A stretch of DNA of 64,000 nt, taken from Jannaschia sp. GRR-S6-38 (GTDB taxonomy: Bacteria > Pseudomonadota > Alphaproteobacteria > Rhodobacterales > Rhodobacteraceae). The notes under the pieces are model-generated. The model was not told the DNA's origin and searched no databases. It was given only the letters and a program-made list of their open reading frames with translations. The DNA is taken from the NCBI RefSeq assembly GCF_029853695.1, contig NZ_CP122537.1, forward strand, positions 2,129,501 to 2,193,500. The letters run 5' to 3'. Below are positions 37,158 to 43,491 of this stretch, in pieces. The position numbers were made by a program, and so were the translations under genes. Within the stretch, counting starts at the first letter, position 1. The number at the start of each line of letters is the position of its first letter.

Positions 37158-38239
37158 GGCGCATCCTCCAGAAGGCCCGGCCGGATCACTCCGCCCACGG
37201 CCGGCACCGCGCGCCCGTCGCCCAGCCGCGCGGTCAGCGCGTCGTAGCGCCCGCCGCTCGCGATCGCCGGGCCGCCCGCGCCGGGCCGCGCGAAGCTGAA
37301 GGTGAAGCCGTCGTAATATTCCATCGCCGTGCGGCCCCGCGCCGGCGCGAAAGGCAGCGCGTCCACGTCCACGCCGCGCGCGGCCAGCGCCTCGGCCCGC
37401 GCCGCGAGCCGGTCGCAGGCCGGGCCGAGCGCGGGCAGGTCGACGGCCAGGTCGCGCACCCGCTCGACCGCCGCGGCCATCGGCGCGTCGAGGTCCAGCA
37501 GCGCGTCGATCGCCTGCGCCTCGATGGCCGAAACGGGCGGCAGGCCTGCGTCTTCCTGCAAGGCCACCAGCCGCGCGGCGATCTCGTCGGGGCCGCGCTT
37601 GCCCACCGCCGTCCCGGCCTCCGCGATCAGCGCCTCGGGCGTGGCACGTTCCAGCCGCGCCAGGAGGGCTGCGCGCTCCGGCGCGGGCACGGCACCTCCG
37701 AAGCGCTCCATCAGCCGGCGGAAGCGCGCGGGCCGCCAGATGTGCCGGCGCAGCGCGGCGCGGCGGCGCTCGCTCGTGGTCAGCCCGTCCACCGCCGCCG
37801 TCAGCAGCCCCAGATCGCCCGTCGCGGCGATCGGCGCCCAGGGCGCCAGCACCTCGGCGAAAAGCGCGAAGACCTCGGCATCCGCTGCCGCCGCATCCGC
37901 GCCGTCGAAGATCTCGAAGCCCACCTGCAGGTATTCGCGCGGCCGGCCGTCATCGTCCTCCTGCCGCCGGAACACCTCGCCCGCATAGGCGTAGCGCGCG
38001 GGAGCGGCCCCGCCCGACATATGCGCCTGCGCCACCGGCACGGTGAAATCCGGACGCAGCATCATCTCGCCCGCGAGCGGGTCGGTCGTGGTGAAGGCGC
38101 GGGCGCGGATGTCTTCGCCGTAAAGCTCCAGCAGCGTGCCCGCGGGCTGCAGGATCGCCGTCTCCACCGGCCGGGCCCCGGCCGCGCGGAAGCGCGCCAG
38201 CAGGTCCGCGGCGCGGGCGCGTGCGGCGGCGTCGATCAT
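37154..38239 (-). CDS. hisZ: ATP phosphoribosyltransferase regulatory subunit
   Basis: 361-aa HisRS-like protein that forms an octamer with short HisG and mediates histidine feedback. Class II aaRS-type segments: [16 protein letters not shown] (motif 2-like), the [15 protein letters not shown] stretch, [13 protein letters not shown] and [13 protein letters not shown] (motif 3-like). ATG 38239 overlaps the hisS stop by ATGA. Gene order hisS-hisZ-hisG in one operon is typical of Rhodobacteraceae. Confidence 0.96.
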
Positions 38240-39819
38240 CCCAGGAGCTTGCGGATATGGGCGACCAGCCCGTCGAGCGGCACCTCGGCCTGCGAGGGGT
38301 TCTCCTTCCACTCCTCGAGGCTCGCCTCCGCGGCCAGCTTCGCGCCCAGCACCAGGTCCTTGACCTGCACCACGCCGCGCGCCGCCTCGTCCGAGCCCTG
38401 GATGATTGCCGCCGGGCTGCCGCGCTTGTCGGCATATTTGAGCTGGTTGCCGAAATTCTTCGGGTTGCCGAGATAGACCTCGGCCCGGATGCCGGCCTGC
38501 CGCAGCGTGGCGCAGATCGCCTGGTAATCGGCCATCCGGTCGCGATCCATGACCGTGACGACCACCGGCCCCCGGGCCTCGTCGCCCAGCCGCCCCTTCG
38601 CGTCCAGCGCCGCCAGAAGCCGGTCGACGCCGATCGAGACGCCGGTCGCGGGAACCTGCTGGCCGGTGAAGCGCGTCACCAGGTCGTCGTAGCGCCCCCC
38701 GCCCGCGACCGAGCCGAACTGCCGCGGGCGGCCCTTCTCGTCGGTGATCTCGAAGGTCAGCTCCGCCTCGTAGACGGGCCCGGTGTAATAGCCCAAGCCG
38801 CGGACGACCGAGGGGTCGATGACGATGCGGTCGGGGCCGTAGCCCTGCGCGTCGAGGAGAGCGGCGATCTTCTCCAACTCGTCGACGCCCTCGGCGCCCA
38901 GGGCGGATGCGCCCACCACGTCTCGCAGCGCCTGCAGGGTCGCCGCACTGCCCGAAGGGCGGTCCCCGACCTGGGTGGGGGCGGAAGCCCCCTCCCGGGG
39001 GGAGGTCGGGGGCTGCCCGGCGGTGCCGCCGGGCGTGTCCTTGCCGCCGACTGCCAGCCCGATCTCGAGAAAGCGCAAGAGCGGCGCGGCCTGCGCCTCA
39101 CCCAACCCCGCGCCTTCGGTGAAATCCCCGCTCTCGTCCTTGCGTCCCTCGCCCAGCAGAGCGCGGACCCCCTCGACCCCCAACCGGTCCAGCTTGTCGA
39201 TGGCGCGCAGCACGATCCCCCGCGTGCGCTCGTCATCCTCGGCGATGCCCGCCGCCTCCATCACCCCGTTCAGAACCTTGCGGTTGTTTACCCGCACCAC
39301 GTAATCGCCGCGCGCGATCCCCACCGCCTCCAGCACATCCGCCAGCATCGCGCAGATCTCGGCATCGGCGGCCACGCTGGCCGTCCCGACCGTGTCGGCG
39401 TCGCATTGGTAGAACTGCCGGAACCGCCCCGGGCCCGGCTTCTCGTTGCGCCAGACCGGGCCCATCGCATAGCGGCGATAGGGCGTGGGCAACTCGTTGC
39501 GGTGCTCGGCATATACGCGGGCCAGCGGCGCGGTCAGGTCGTAGCGCAGCGCCAGCCAGTCGCCCGGATCGTCGGCCGCCTCGCCCTCTTGCCAGGCGAA
39601 GACGCCGTCGTTCGGGCGGTCCACGTCGGGCAGGAACTTGCCCAGCGCCTCGACCGTCTCCACGGCCGAGGATTCCAGCGGGTCGAAGCCGTAGAGCGCG
39701 TAGACTTCGGCGATCCGGTCCAGCATGGCCTTGCGCGCCGTCACCTCCGCGCCGAAATAGTCGCGGAACCCGCGCGGCGGGCGGGCCTGGGGGCGGCGGG
39801 GCTTCTTGGTCTTGGCCAT
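38236..39819 (-). CDS. hisS: Histidyl-tRNA synthetase with an in-frame repeat-encoded insertion
   Basis: 527 aa, class II aminoacyl-tRNA synthetase that charges tRNA-His. ATG 39819 follows AGGAC. Motif 1 region near [11 protein letters not shown], motif 2 [21 protein letters not shown], HisA motif [15 protein letters not shown], and motif 3 [13 protein letters not shown] are intact. Residues about 261-292 (Gly/Pro/Ser-rich, starting [12 protein letters not shown]) are coded by a palindromic repeat (38944-39039) and look like an insertion between FLEIG and [11 protein letters not shown]; family members I recall are about 30-38 residues shorter here. As hisS is essential, the loop must be tolerated. 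Confidence 0.96.
38944..39039 (-). repeat. Palindromic repeat copy inside hisS (in frame)
   Basis: Contains GCCCGGCGG/CCGCCGGGC (9-bp stem, 2-base loop, 39014-39033), a GGGGGC/GCCCCC pair, and a CGACC/GGTCG pair. The core GGTCGGGGGCTGCCCGGC (39004-39021) is identical to 42437-42454 in the intergenic copy, and the flanking blocks of about 60 bases are alignable. It adds about 32 residues without breaking the frame. Confidence 0.8.
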
Positions 39820-39906
39820 GGGGTCCTGTCCCTCGGATCGTCGGGCCGTCATCTACGGGGCGCGCGGGTGCCCCGCAACCCGAGGCCCGCTTGCAGGGAG
39901 AGCATC

Positions 39907-40101
39907 ATGGACGCCATCGAGGAACGCATCGCCCACCTGATCCGGCAGGTCGAGGACCTGTCCGACGTGGTCGCCCGCCAGTCGGGCGAGATCGACCGGC
40001 TGGAGCGCCGCGTCGCGCTGCTCATGGAACGCGCCGCCGAGGCGGAATCCGAAGGCCAGGGCTCCGTGCCGCTCGCCGACCAGCGCCCGCCGCATTGGTG
40101 A
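39907..40101 (+). CDS. slyX: SlyX family protein
   Basis: 64 aa. Single heptad-rich coiled coil (IEERIAHLIRQVEDLSDVVA then EIDRLERRVALLMERAAE), ending PPHW as in SlyX proteins. ATG 39907 follows GGGAG by 6 bases. Function poorly defined in the family. Divergent from hisS. Confidence 0.88.
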   Translation: MDAIEERIAHLIRQVEDLSDVVARQSGEIDRLERRVALLMERAAEAESEGQGSVPLADQRPPHW

Positions 40102-40171
40102 GCGCGCGGTCGGGGCGGCCTCCGCCGCGCCCCCATTGACCCGCCTTCGCCGCCCGGCGACGCTTCCGCGC

Positions 40172-41317
40172 ATGATCCTGACCGACCTGCCGCCCGGCTT
40201 CCACGACGACCCGTTCCCGCATTACGCCGCCGTCCGCGAAGCCGGCGCGATCCGGCAGCCGGACGGCTCGGTCCTGCTCGGGCGCCACGCCGATCTGTCG
40301 GCCATCTACCGCGACACCGCCACCTTCCGCTCCGACAGGCGCGAGGTCTTCGCGCCGAAATTCGGTGACGGCCCGCTCTACGCGCATCACACCACCTCGC
40401 TCGTCTTCAACGACCCGCCCCTGCATACCCGCGTGCGCCGGGTGCTGACCGGCGCGCTGACGCCCCGCGCGCTGGACCGGCTGCGGCCCCGGCTCGAAGC
40501 GCTTGTGGACACCCTGCTCGAACAACTGGGACCCGAGGCCGATCTCATCGTCGAATTCGCCGCTGCCATCCCGGTCGAGGTGATCGGCGACCTGCTCGAC
40601 GTGCCCCGGCCCGAACGCGGCCCCCTGCGCGGCTGGTCGCTCGCCATCCTCGGCGCGCTGGAACCCGCGCTGAGCCCCGAGGCGCGGGCCCGCGGCGACC
40701 GCGCGGTGACCGAATTCCTGGCCTATCTGCAGGACCTCGTCGCCCGCCGCCGCGCCCGTCCGGGCGATCCCGACACCGATGTGCTGACCCGGCTCATCGC
40801 CGATGGCGACCTGTCCGAGGCCGAGCTTCTGCACAATTGCATCTTCATCCTGAACGCGGGCCACGAGACGACGACCAACCTGATCGGCAACGCGCTCTGG
40901 CTGCTCGACCGCCATCCGGGTGCGCGCGGCTCCGACCCGGCGGGCCTCGTCGAGGAGACGCTGCGGATGGAGAGCCCGAACCAGTTCGGCAACCGCCAGA
41001 CCACCGCGCCCAGCCGCTTCCACGGGCTCGACATCGCGCCGGGCACGGACCTGCACCTCTGCATCGGTGCGGCGAACCGCGACCCGGACCAGTTCGCGGC
41101 GCCCAACCGCTTCGACCCGGCGCGCAGCCCCAACCGCCATCTCGCCTTCGCCGCCGGGCCGCATGTCTGCATCGGCCTGACGCTCGCGCGGATGGAGGGC
41201 ACGGTCGCGTTGGCGCGCTTTCTTGCGCGCTTCCCCGATTACCGCGTCACCGAGGCCCGCCGCGGCGGGCGCGTGCGGTTCCGGGGCTTCGAGCGGCTGG
41301 ACGCGCGGCTGGCCTAG
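40172..41317 (+). CDS. Cytochrome P450
   Basis: 381-aa soluble class I P450. I-helix oxygen-binding motif AGHETT (229-234), K-helix ExxR (Glu262-Arg265) and heme loop FAAGPHVCIG with the thiolate Cys333. The J-J' to K segment (RHPGARGSDPAGLVEE) is shorter than in many relatives. ATG 40172 gives MILTDLPPGFHDDPFPHY, a normal N-terminus. It needs a ferredoxin and reductase, neither of which is adjacent. Substrate unknown. Confidence 0.93.
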   Translation: MILTDLPPGFHDDPFPHYAAVREAGAIRQPDGSVLLGRHADLSAIYRDTATFRSDRREVFAPKFGDGPLYAHHTTSLVFNDPPLHTRVRRVLTGALTPRALDRLRPRLEALVDTLLEQLGPEADLIVEFAAAIPVEVIGDLLDVPRPERGPLRGWSLAILGALEPALSPEARARGDRAVTEFLAYLQDLVARRRARPGDPDTDVLTRLIADGDLSEAELLHNCIFILNAGHETTTNLIGNALWLLDRHPGARGSDPAGLVEETLRMESPNQFGNRQTTAPSRFHGLDIAPGTDLHLCIGAANRDPDQFAAPNRFDPARSPNRHLAFAAGPHVCIGLTLARMEGTVALARFLARFPDYRVTEARRGGRVRFRGFERLDARLA

Positions 41318-41320
41318 GGG

Positions 41321-42307
41321 TCAGCCCTGCTCGGCCACCGGGATGCGTCCGCCCAGCTCGTCCTCGACATGCGCGCGGATGATCGTGTCCATGTCGGGCT
41401 CGGCCTCGAAGCCCAGCGCGCGGGCCCGGGCGGGGTCGAACCCCCGGGGCCAGGTGTCGATGATCGCCTGGACCGCCGCGTCGGGCTCGCGCCGGATCAG
41501 GCCCGCGGCCTTCGCGCCCGCCACCCGCTCCAGCGCGGCGATCTCCTCGGCCACGGACGCGCCGACGCCCGGCAGGTTCAGCGACCGGTCCTGTCCCAGC
41601 GCGCCGGTCTCCATCTCGGCGGCGCGCAGCAGGAAGCCCACGGCGGCGCGCGGGCTGGCGAACCAGTGCCGCACCGTGTCGGGCACGGGCAGCACGGCGG
41701 GCTGCCCGATCAGCGGCTCGCGCAGGATCGAGCTGTAGAAGCCCGAGGCCGCCGCGTTGGGCGCGCCCGGCCGGATGCAGATCGTCGGCAGGCGCAGCGA
41801 CACGCCGTCGAGCGCGCCCTTGCGGCTCAGGTCGTCGATCATCAGCTCGCCCATGCGCTTCTGCGTGCCGTAGCTCGTCAGCGGGCGGGGCGGCTGGTCG
41901 TCGGGGATCACGTCGGGCAGGGGCGCGCCGAACACCGCGATGGAGGAGGTGAAGACGAGCCGCGGGCAGTAGTCCGGTTGCGCCGCGATCGCCTCGCATA
42001 GCGCCACCGTGCCGTGCAGGTTGACGGCATAGCCCTTGGCGGTGTCCGCCTCCGCCTCGCCCGAGACCACGGCGGCGAGGTGGAAGATGACGTCGGGCCG
42101 CGCCTCGGCCAGGGCGGGGGCGGCGGCCGGGTCCGACAGGTCGGCGGCCAGCGCCGCGCCGGGGATGCCATCGGGCAGGACGGGCGCATCCCGATCCACC
42201 AGCGTCAGCCCGGTGATCGGGTCCCCGCGCAATTCGCCGCGCGCGACCAGCGCCGCGACCAGCTTGCGCCCGATCATGCCCGCCGCGCCGGTGATGAGGA
42301 TCTGCAT
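41321..42307 (-). CDS. denD: NAD-dependent epimerase/dehydratase, D-erythronate dehydrogenase-like
   Basis: 328-aa extended SDR. Nucleotide motif TGAAGMIG, active-site Ser in FTSSIAVFG and YxxxK in SYGTQK. The stretches IPDDQPPRPLTSYGTQK and LRLPTICIRPG, plus VLPVPDTVRHWFASPRAAVG, match the DenD group (D-erythronate to 2-keto-D-erythronate, NAD-linked) as I recall it. The partner genes of four-carbon acid catabolism (kinase, aldolase, isomerase) are not adjacent, so the exact substrate is uncertain. GGGAGA lies about 6 bases before ATG 42307. Converges with the P450 gene. Confidence 0.75.
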   Translation of the reverse strand: MQILITGAAGMIGRKLVAALVARGELRGDPITGLTLVDRDAPVLPDGIPGAALAADLSDPAAAPALAEARPDVIFHLAAVVSGEAEADTAKGYAVNLHGTVALCEAIAAQPDYCPRLVFTSSIAVFGAPLPDVIPDDQPPRPLTSYGTQKRMGELMIDDLSRKGALDGVSLRLPTICIRPGAPNAAASGFYSSILREPLIGQPAVLPVPDTVRHWFASPRAAVGFLLRAAEMETGALGQDRSLNLPGVGASVAEEIAALERVAGAKAAGLIRREPDAAVQAIIDTWPRGFDPARARALGFEAEPDMDTIIRAHVEDELGGRIPVAEQG

Positions 42308-42407
42308 GGCCCGTCTCCCGTGATTGAGCCCCGAAGGCTAGGGCAGCGGGCCCGGGGGGACCAGAGCCCGCGCGGCGCGATCCGCCAAGGAGAGCCCCCG
42401 GCCGCGG

Positions 42408-42470
42408 GCGGGGGAGGAGCCCCCGCCCATGGGGGCGGTCGGGGGCTGCCCGGCCTATGGCCGGGCGGGT
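42408..42470 (-). repeat. Palindromic repeat copy between denD-like and PfkB genes
   Basis: GGGGGAGG-AGCCCCC, then GGTCGGGGGCTGCCCGGC (42437-42454) and GGCCGGGCGGGTC. Inverted pairs: CCCGGCC/GGCCGGG and GGGGGC/GCCCCC. It aligns along its length with the copy inside hisS. It lies in the 203-base gap after the PfkB gene stop (minus strand) and could also act as a transcriptional punctuation hairpin. Confidence 0.75.
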
Positions 42471-42510
42471 CAGCGGCGAACCACGGCGCGTCGCACCGGG
42501 GGCGCCCGAC

Positions 42511-43491
42511 CTAGAGCAGCCCCTCGGCGCGGAACTGCGCCGCCATGTCCGTGGCGGGGCGGGGGCCCATATGGCCGATCACCTCGCGCGCGCAGATCAC
42601 GCCCATCCGGGCCGCCGTTTCCAGGTCGCGGCCCGTCGACAGCCCGTAGAGGAAGCCCGCCGCGAACTGGTCGCCCGCCCCGGTCGCGTCGACCACCGGC
42701 ACCTTCTGGACCGGCGAGACGACATGCGCGTCGCCGTTGCGCACCCAGACATCCGCGCCCGAGCGGGTGCAGACCACGGTCTCACAGACCTCGGAGGCGA
42801 GACCCACCGCGCGCTCGAGGTCCTCGGTTTCGTAGAGCGTCGTCCATTCGGCGGCATTGCCGATCGCGATATCCATGTCCTCGGCGATCAGGCGCTGGAA
42901 ATCGGCGCGGTGGCGGTCGGCGCAGAACGGGTCCGAGATGGTGATGGCCGAGCGCCCGCCCGCGGCCTGCATCTTCCCCGCTGCCTCCTGGAAGGCGGTC
43001 TTCCCCTCGTCCTTGTCGAAGAGATAGCCCTCGAGGAACAGGAGCCCCCCGCCGCCGAACACGTCCGGCACGTCGGCCCGGCCCAGATCGGCGCCCGCGC
43101 CCAGATAGGTGTTCATCGAGCGCTCGCCATCGGGCGAGACGAAGATCATCGAGCGCGAGGTCGGCAGGTCCGCCGCCCGCGGCGGGTTCGGGAAGGCCGT
43201 GCCCGCGCCCTCCATCGTGCGCGCGTAGAATTGGCCCAGCGCGTCGTCGCGCACCTTGCCGATGAAGGCGGTCGCCAGGCCCAGCGCGCCGATCCCCGCC
43301 AGCGTGTTCGCGACCGAGCCGCCGGGCGCCTCGACCCGCTCGGACATCGCGGCATAGAGCAGCTCCGCGCGCTCGCGTTCGATGAGCTGCATGATCCCCT
43401 TCTCGATGCCCATCTGGTCCAGGAAGGTGTCGCTCGAGGGCGAGATCACGTCGACGATCGCGTTGCCGATGCCGATCACGTCGTAGCTCAT
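42511..43491 (-). CDS. PfkB-family sugar/nucleoside kinase, adenosine kinase-like
   Basis: 326 aa. PfkB signature 1 region GGSVANTLAGIGALG and signature 2 VVDATGAGDQFAAGFLYG (catalytic Asp in GAGD) are present; the N-terminus YDVIGIGNAIVDVI and the context GDERSMNTYLGA-like stretch (GERSMNTYLGAGADL) resemble bacterial adenosine kinases/PfkB kinases of Rhodobacteraceae. ATG 43491 follows AGGACA. It would phosphorylate a nucleoside or sugar; a purine role suits the purine operon elsewhere in the window but is not proven. Confidence 0.85.
   Translation of the reverse strand: MSYDVIGIGNAIVDVISPSSDTFLDQMGIEKGIMQLIERERAELLYAAMSERVEAPGGSVANTLAGIGALGLATAFIGKVRDDALGQFYARTMEGAGTAFPNPPRAADLPTSRSMIFVSPDGERSMNTYLGAGADLGRADVPDVFGGGGLLFLEGYLFDKDEGKTAFQEAAGKMQAAGGRSAITISDPFCADRHRADFQRLIAEDMDIAIGNAAEWTTLYETEDLERAVGLASEVCETVVCTRSGADVWVRNGDAHVVSPVQKVPVVDATGAGDQFAAGFLYGLSTGRDLETAARMGVICAREVIGHMGPRPATDMAAQFRAEGLL

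Follow-up and report, generated by a model that had tools for sequence, protein, structure and literature searches.

How a piece of repeat DNA became part of an essential protein is the question raised by hisS, the histidyl-tRNA synthetase gene, of Jannaschia sp. GRR-S6-38, in which inverted repeats lie within the reading frame. Palindromes translated in frame are best known from Rickettsia, where their targets are scattered, whereas here a free-living lineage, one essential gene and several genera are concerned. The gene was analyzed within a stretch of 64,000 nucleotides (hereafter the window), taken from a genome that consists of a single contig of 3.32 Mb.

The palindromic element within hisS

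The features concerned, with their positions in the window, are these:

38236..39852, minus strand: hisS, histidyl-tRNA synthetase (open reading frame list; homologues with PF13393, PF03129 and PF00587)
38958..39035, plus strand: in-frame copy of the palindromic element, 78 nt (covariance model R1, 55.0 bits, E 3.9e-4 over the whole genome)
38958..39014, plus strand: nested main hairpin of the hisS element (fold; family consensus and covariation)
39015..39034, plus strand: second hairpin, GCCCGGC..GCCGGGC, equal to helix 3 (fold)
42390..42467, plus strand: intergenic copy of the hisS element (covariance model, 80.4 bits, E 1.2e-7)

The hisS product is 538 amino acids long when read from the ATG at 39852 and 527 from the likelier ATG at 39819, and the best of its matches in the PDB (23 sequences at E 0.001) are histidyl-tRNA synthetases. 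The initial annotation had described about 96 bases of nested inverted repeats (38944..39039) that align with an intergenic repeat at 42408-42470, and both the repeats and the alignment are borne out. As DNA, the hisS element folds with a z score of -3.6 and the intergenic copy with one of -5.5, and the mRNA strand of hisS across the element with one of -3.1, none of 200 shuffles being equally stable in any of these cases. Exact copies of the 18-base core GGTCGGGGGCTGCCCGGC lie at 39004-39021 and 42437-42454, and a repeat search within the window pairs 38964-39021 with 42397-42454 at 78%; a third window match to the core has three mismatches, for which the chance expectation is about one. The limits are better placed at 38958-39035 (78 nt) and, for the intergenic copy, at 42390-42467. 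This latter copy lies between two minus-strand genes, 41321-42307 and 42511-43491, which we take to be an epimerase-like and a sugar-kinase-like gene, respectively. As had been stated of this essential synthetase, the reading frame stays open across the whole element, which encodes residues 262-288 of the 527-residue protein.

Outside hisS, the best genome match of the stretch found by BLAST is C1:1166357 (88% over 78 nt, E 4.4e-18), other copies being C1:2704259 (82%, E 7.8e-15), C1:251561 (80%, E 4.4e-5) and the intergenic copy of the window (C1:2171896; 79%, E 7.1e-9); 19 further short matches (E 0.003-0.55) were left out of the copy count. The stretch 38958-39035 is thus confirmed as a member of a dispersed palindromic family, made up of two hairpins and lying in frame in the gene of an essential enzyme. 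In an AlphaFold2 model of the protein (55 sequences, mean pLDDT 72), residues 260-287 have a pLDDT below 50 and lie between helices 241-258 and 291-302. The prediction is suggestive of an unstructured element loop and stays at that level because stretches 1-20, 50-99 and 124-133 of HisS are also poorly predicted.

A dispersed family of repeats

The covariance model was built from 11 copies of three genomes, and its training set includes both the hisS copy 38958-39035 and the intergenic copy 42390-42467. In the window genome it has eight matches at E <=1, of which five reach E <=0.01 and three are weaker (0.07, 0.31 and 1.0); of these three, the ones at 893461 and 251544 are detected by BLAST as well (E 2.7e-10). 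The search for further copies that the initial annotation had proposed has therefore returned seven model matches besides that in hisS. Among congeners, 15 matches at E <=0.01 were found in genome G017 and one in G016, and a BLAST match at E 0.001 is present in 10 of the 20 genus genomes, own included (30 in G017, 12 in G016). All these copy numbers are lower bounds, as the model scored 150 of 10355 first-look candidates and BLAST 40 of 86 in the own genome. With a simple gene caller trained on the window, seven of the eight window-genome matches are placed between genes and one in hisS. With a simple gene caller, none of the 15 in G017 is clearly inside a gene: three overlap predicted gene starts (by 78, 79 and 3 nt), the first two of these genes apparently being predicted too long, and one reaches 28 nt into the end of a gene.

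Across 33 aligned matches (31 distinct rows, in an alignment fitted to the covariance model), 94.9% of the cells pair, and both partners have changed in 15 of the 31 pairs, including five of the eight pairs of helix 3, the second hairpin. The observed covariation was reached by 0 of 500 shuffles and is lost on sliding the partners. Because of this pairing and covariation, the hairpins can be regarded as a property of the repeat family. Stop codons are absent from all six frames in 15 of the same 33 matches and from five frames in another 14, and the length is a multiple of three in 14, which makes it easy for the repeat to insert in frame.

The mobility that the initial annotation attributed to the repeat is inferred from its dispersed and patchy distribution; for example, no model match at E 0.1 is found near the orthologue of the kinase gene adjoining the 42390 copy in any of 19 congeners, gene order being left aside. 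Mobilization by a RAYT was considered and set aside, as the family PF01797 (Y1_Tnp) has no match in the window genome at E 0.001, with 5 of 14 control genomes matched. In the genus, PF01797 was found in three of 20 genomes, two of these over the cut-off. No match to a curated Rfam family was found up to E 1 in window positions 38000-43000. Near the ends of the 33 matches (up to 10 nt beyond an end or 4 nt within it; the 33 include two rows that repeat a copy already counted), GTAG occurs once, CTAC not at all, CGTC twice and GACG, the reverse of CGTC, 13 times, and the flank consensus holds no uniform tag. Upstream of many copies (e.g. L177, L179, L182, L059 and L189) a loose CG.GA.GCGG.GAG is seen, several then having GGACG downstream; these flanks may represent a target preference or the end of a longer, unrecognized element. 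This loose upstream pattern is all that the copy flanks show (duplications being judged by eye), and the element itself is an inverted repeat. Some copies appear to be shared by descent: in G016 and G017 a seemingly orthologous copy (the pair L177 and L182) lies just upstream of the same gene, presumably that of a von Willebrand A-like protein. Copies L245 and L247, of a related subtype and from two congeners of Salipiger sp. IMCC34102 (G414 and G415), have flanks conserved at 0.84-0.97.

The hisS loop and its carriers

In the 20 genus genomes, the loop interval measures 101 residues in seven, 99 in one and 123-149 in 11, with 134 in that of the window. The window protein has 33 extra residues compared with the seven congeners of 101-residue interval. 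Compared with P0142, a metagenomic protein with 92 residues where the window protein has 118, it has 26 more, that is, 78 nt. The addition of about 32 residues (261-292) proposed by the initial annotation is thereby upheld as an expansion and narrowed in extent to 262-288. The repeat model has no match in the hisS loci of the 19 congeners. A clean gap opposite the insert, as had been expected of relatives, exists in the eight with a shorter loop, which serve as a natural control, and is absent from the 11 whose inserts are unlike the repeat. An insertion shared by relatives in repeat-unlike form, which would have spoken for ordinary divergence, was not found, the sequences of these 11 longer loops having no match to the repeat model. 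By its sequence, P0142 seems to have the loop allele of the window protein in a state without the element.

Wider searches point to a rare insert. In 80 named hisS loci, all readable, none of the longer loops shows the repeat. When the insert-bearing segment was compared with 394 family genomes (393 genera), 375 matched, with 163.9 bits for the window's own and 97.1 for the next, and of the next 29 loci, 28 were readable and none carries the insert. This unselected sample suggests that the AGQPPTSPR form is rare (1 of 375, the window's own); for other forms the exclusion is less firm, because the rest of the listed matches were judged by score alone.

The loop is hypervariable in Rhodobacterales more generally, being at least 45 residues long in 58 of 133 distinct genes (L025-L044, L049, L085-L164, L193-L238), and the loop types need 70 changes on a HisS tree of 286 proteins. 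The GC content of the 58 long loops is 0.53 and that of the remainder of the gene 0.64, the loop having the lower value in 55 of 58 cases, and the two loops highest in GC relative to their own gene are the element carriers. A closely similar non-element loop peptide, with diverged codons, is found in Jannaschia (L032) and Sedimentitalea (L148); identical codons are used at 0.13-0.41 of the shared residues in the loop windows of the pair, which suggests a loop allele conserved at the protein level across genera. Another metagenomic HisS, P0002, is 686 residues long and contains a large, seemingly duplicated internal stretch, either a real duplication or a misassembly.

Two protein searches with insert-bearing queries, the best 120 of each being kept, yielded 204 HisS proteins, and the loop could be read in every one. 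A Pro/Gly/Ala-rich insert is found at the same site in ten of them, a frequency inflated by the use of queries that bore the insert, the unselected sample giving 1 of 375. The carriers are:

P0001 (window), P0005 (Salipiger sp. IMCC34102), P0006 and P0017
P0009, P0010, P0022, P0027 and P0033, with PPPRAGA
P0014 (a Shimia MAG), with GGTPGSPRP

When aligned to six-frame translations of repeat copies from outside hisS, each of the ten inserts outscores all of its 100 shuffles, and all match the repeat in one and the same orientation, whereas four other long inserts fail this alignment, 49-93 of 100 shuffles being as good. The margin is small for two of the PPPRAGA carriers, P0009 (70 compared with 65 for the best shuffle) and P0033 (71 compared with 66). 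These comparisons show that the ten inserts derive from the repeat and share one site and one orientation, the derivation of eight (the five with PPPRAGA, P0006, P0014 and P0017) being read from the protein and hence putative at the level of DNA. The motif F[LV]x[IV]G precedes the insert in 10 of 10 carriers compared with 5 of 194 others (Fisher 1.1e-13), and P0142 has it without the element. On the HisS tree, built with FastTree from the 286 proteins with the loop left out, the ten carriers need ten state changes. Judging from the peptides, P0014 and the AGQPPTSPR group seem to translate the GGGCAGCCCC part in different frames, a hint of more than one insertion.

For one further carrier the DNA could be compared. 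The genome of Salipiger sp. IMCC34102 (G416, with an identical HisS) has a model match in hisS at the same site (E 1.9e-4), and this copy lies outside the training set of the model. Eight congeners of this strain have no match to the repeat model in hisS, four having a short loop and four long loops of other sequence. The hisS copies of the window and of IMCC34102 are identical at 71 of 78 nt (91%) and group together with a FastTree support of 0.985, while the other aligned copies, including five from the window genome and one from IMCC34102, are at most 80% identical to the two. Of the 26 element codons, 19 encode shared residues, and all 19 of these are identical codons, compared with a mean identical-codon fraction of 0.65 and a maximum of 0.89 in the 444 remaining, mutually overlapping 26-codon windows along these two genes. 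By nucleotide identity alone, the element window, at 0.91, is high, yet below the maximum of 0.94. The seven differences all fall at first or second codon positions and all change the residue, with no synonymous difference. Beside the element, identity over 60 nt falls to 57% on one side and 52% on the other (75% and 40% for the nearest 20 nt), and flanks measured by codon windows are 53-57% identical. Because of the identical codons, the residue-changing differences and the flanks at 52-57%, what is shared between the two genera is DNA. Transfer of a longer segment is not visible, since the adjacent 60 nt are so diverged. The RNA fold of the IMCC34102 element is also stable. Ordinary transfer of loop cassettes, with L032 and L148 as the example, was rejected as a model, as that loop is alike as protein only, unlike the element.

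Three intergenic pairs that look orthologous bear on whether the element evolves slowly wherever it lies. In L245/L247 the element is identical at 0.90 and the flanks at 0.84-0.97, without excess; in L177/L182 the element (0.89) compares with 0.80-0.90 upstream and 0.35-0.36 downstream; and in L058/L062 it reaches 0.69, with 0.50 and 0.43 for the nearest 60 nt. The evidence for general slow evolution as the cause of the conservation between the hisS copies is therefore mixed, two of the three pairs exceeding at least one flank. A private insertion from the genome's own repeats is weakened, as the two hisS copies group apart from the others. Dispersal and patchiness agree with the mobile repeat put forward by the initial annotation, but the hisS copy is not simply a fresh jump within this genome, being nearer to the hisS copy of another genus than to any other aligned copy.

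Origin of the insert and comparison with known systems

The reading we prefer, to which we give a probability of about 0.48, is that a REP-like insert landed in an allele of the hisS loop, then passed laterally among Rhodobacterales and was kept as DNA. A two-hairpin element would have landed in frame in a HisS loop that was already very variable in length and sequence, through a single insertion or a small number of them, into the loop allele that has F[LV]x[IV]G ahead of the insert. Either this allele with its element or the element by itself would then have passed between Rhodobacterales, and the insert may have been kept as DNA, having no function of its own in the protein. It would be tolerated because a GC-rich palindrome has few stops and 78 nt make 26 codons. 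The shared motif together with P0142 points either to one ancestral element-bearing allele that spread from lineage to lineage or to an element with a preference for inserting into this allele; the motif and the hisS subtype favor the former, the diverged flanks the latter. Entry of an active element into one preferred loop site, in fixed orientation, with independent and recent copies in the different genera, is thus the rival to which we give most attention, although it remains rather unlikely. The contrast between a 91% identical element and adjacent 60 nt at 52-57%, the ten tree changes for ten carriers, the apparent difference of frame between P0014 and the AGQPPTSPR group, and the loose CG.GA.GCGG.GAG upstream of copies all fit such targeting. 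The hisS-copy subtype is nevertheless absent among the other aligned copies (five from the window genome and one from IMCC34102 included), sharing of an allele accounts better for the F[LV]x[IV]G flank common to the carriers, and no mobilizing enzyme was identified when the RAYT family was sought. A bolder version, in which a hisS-specific subtype homes to one codon region, always in one orientation, passes from genus to genus within Rhodobacterales, and persists because, being translated in frame, it is hard to lose from an essential gene, appears doubtful, a little more so than targeting as such.

Selection on the DNA or mRNA of hisS, for example through translation or mRNA stability, would make the palindrome, and not the peptide, the functional part. 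The lack of synonymous differences with seven of seven differences changing the residue, the stable RNA folds in both species and the opposite, protein-only pattern of the L032/L148 loop agree with it, and slightly more weight is due to it because two intergenic pairs, L177/L182 and L058/L062, exceed at least one flank. However, the pair L245/L247 shows no excess, most HisS proteins do without the element, and selection on structure alone would leave room for compensatory changes such as those in the rest of the family, whereas between the hisS copies the sequence itself is kept; we regard this explanation as distinctly unlikely. Very unlikely is a part in a functional HisRS insertion domain, for instance one serving the unusual tRNA-His of these bacteria, which in Rhodobacterales is described as having no G-1 (PMC4284800). 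HisS does vary between species at this loop, but all seven substitutions in the element are non-synonymous, the region is predicted to be disordered and most relatives have no insert. Ordinary loop divergence with chance symmetry, which a GC-rich genome and a hypervariable loop might invite, is extremely improbable: chance GC-rich symmetry is ruled out by the match to a distant copy at E 4.4e-18, the copies in the genome, the covariation of the family and the shuffles of the inserts (0 of 100 as good). Lateral passage of an element-bearing allele, or of the element alone, remains our preferred reading, and, as DNA rather than peptide is shared, the locus offers a tractable case of how repeats move and of whether they are selfish, tolerated or used.

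Among known systems, the Rickettsia palindromic elements (RPEs; Ogata/Claverie) are described as palindromes of about 150 bp that are translated in frame in protein genes and have entered many unrelated genes, with 44 insertions in R. conorii (PMC3733652; PMC10969869). The hisS copy is like them in being a translated palindrome in frame inside a protein gene, and to this extent the counterpart of RPEs suggested in the initial annotation holds. Habitual invasion of genes is not supported: one of eight Jannaschia matches is intragenic (by a simple gene caller, with copies possibly missing), none of the 15 in G017 is clearly internal, and many unrelated genes are not involved. Compared with RPEs as described, the unit is also shorter (78 nt), the host belongs to Rhodobacterales, and one site in one gene is occupied repeatedly across several genera. 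The GTAG/CGTC REPs are described as short and mostly intergenic palindromes, stem-loops of 20-40 bp with a terminal tag; intragenic examples are reported, among them copies in tRNA synthetase genes (X. oryzae, E. lithoralis and S. alaskensis) and copies in recB that occupy nearly the same position in two Xanthomonas (PMC3733652). The Jannaschia repeat resembles them in being mostly intergenic with one copy in a tRNA synthetase gene. It differs in its 78-position unit of a nested hairpin and a second hairpin rather than a single 20-40 bp stem-loop, and it appears to have no uniform tag, although GACG lies near 13 of 33 matches. With REPIN/RAYT systems and MITEs, as described, it shares the character of a small, dispersed and non-autonomous element, but the window genome is without a Y1_Tnp match (three of 20 in the genus), and, as regards MITEs, the element is itself an inverted repeat, with flanks that show, by eye, only the loose upstream pattern.

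The titles and abstract openings of the literature found on palindromes in Rhodobacter, Rhodobacteraceae and Jannaschia, and on inserts in HisS or synthetases, describe no such repeat family; in the accessible text of the RepRanger paper, 'rhodobacter' is absent and the sole match to 'jannaschia' is Hyphomonas jannaschiana. Altogether, the kind of element is already known, since RPEs and intragenic REPs have been described, and what is new is the one fixed site in hisS in several genera, together with sharing at the level of DNA where the DNA is at hand.
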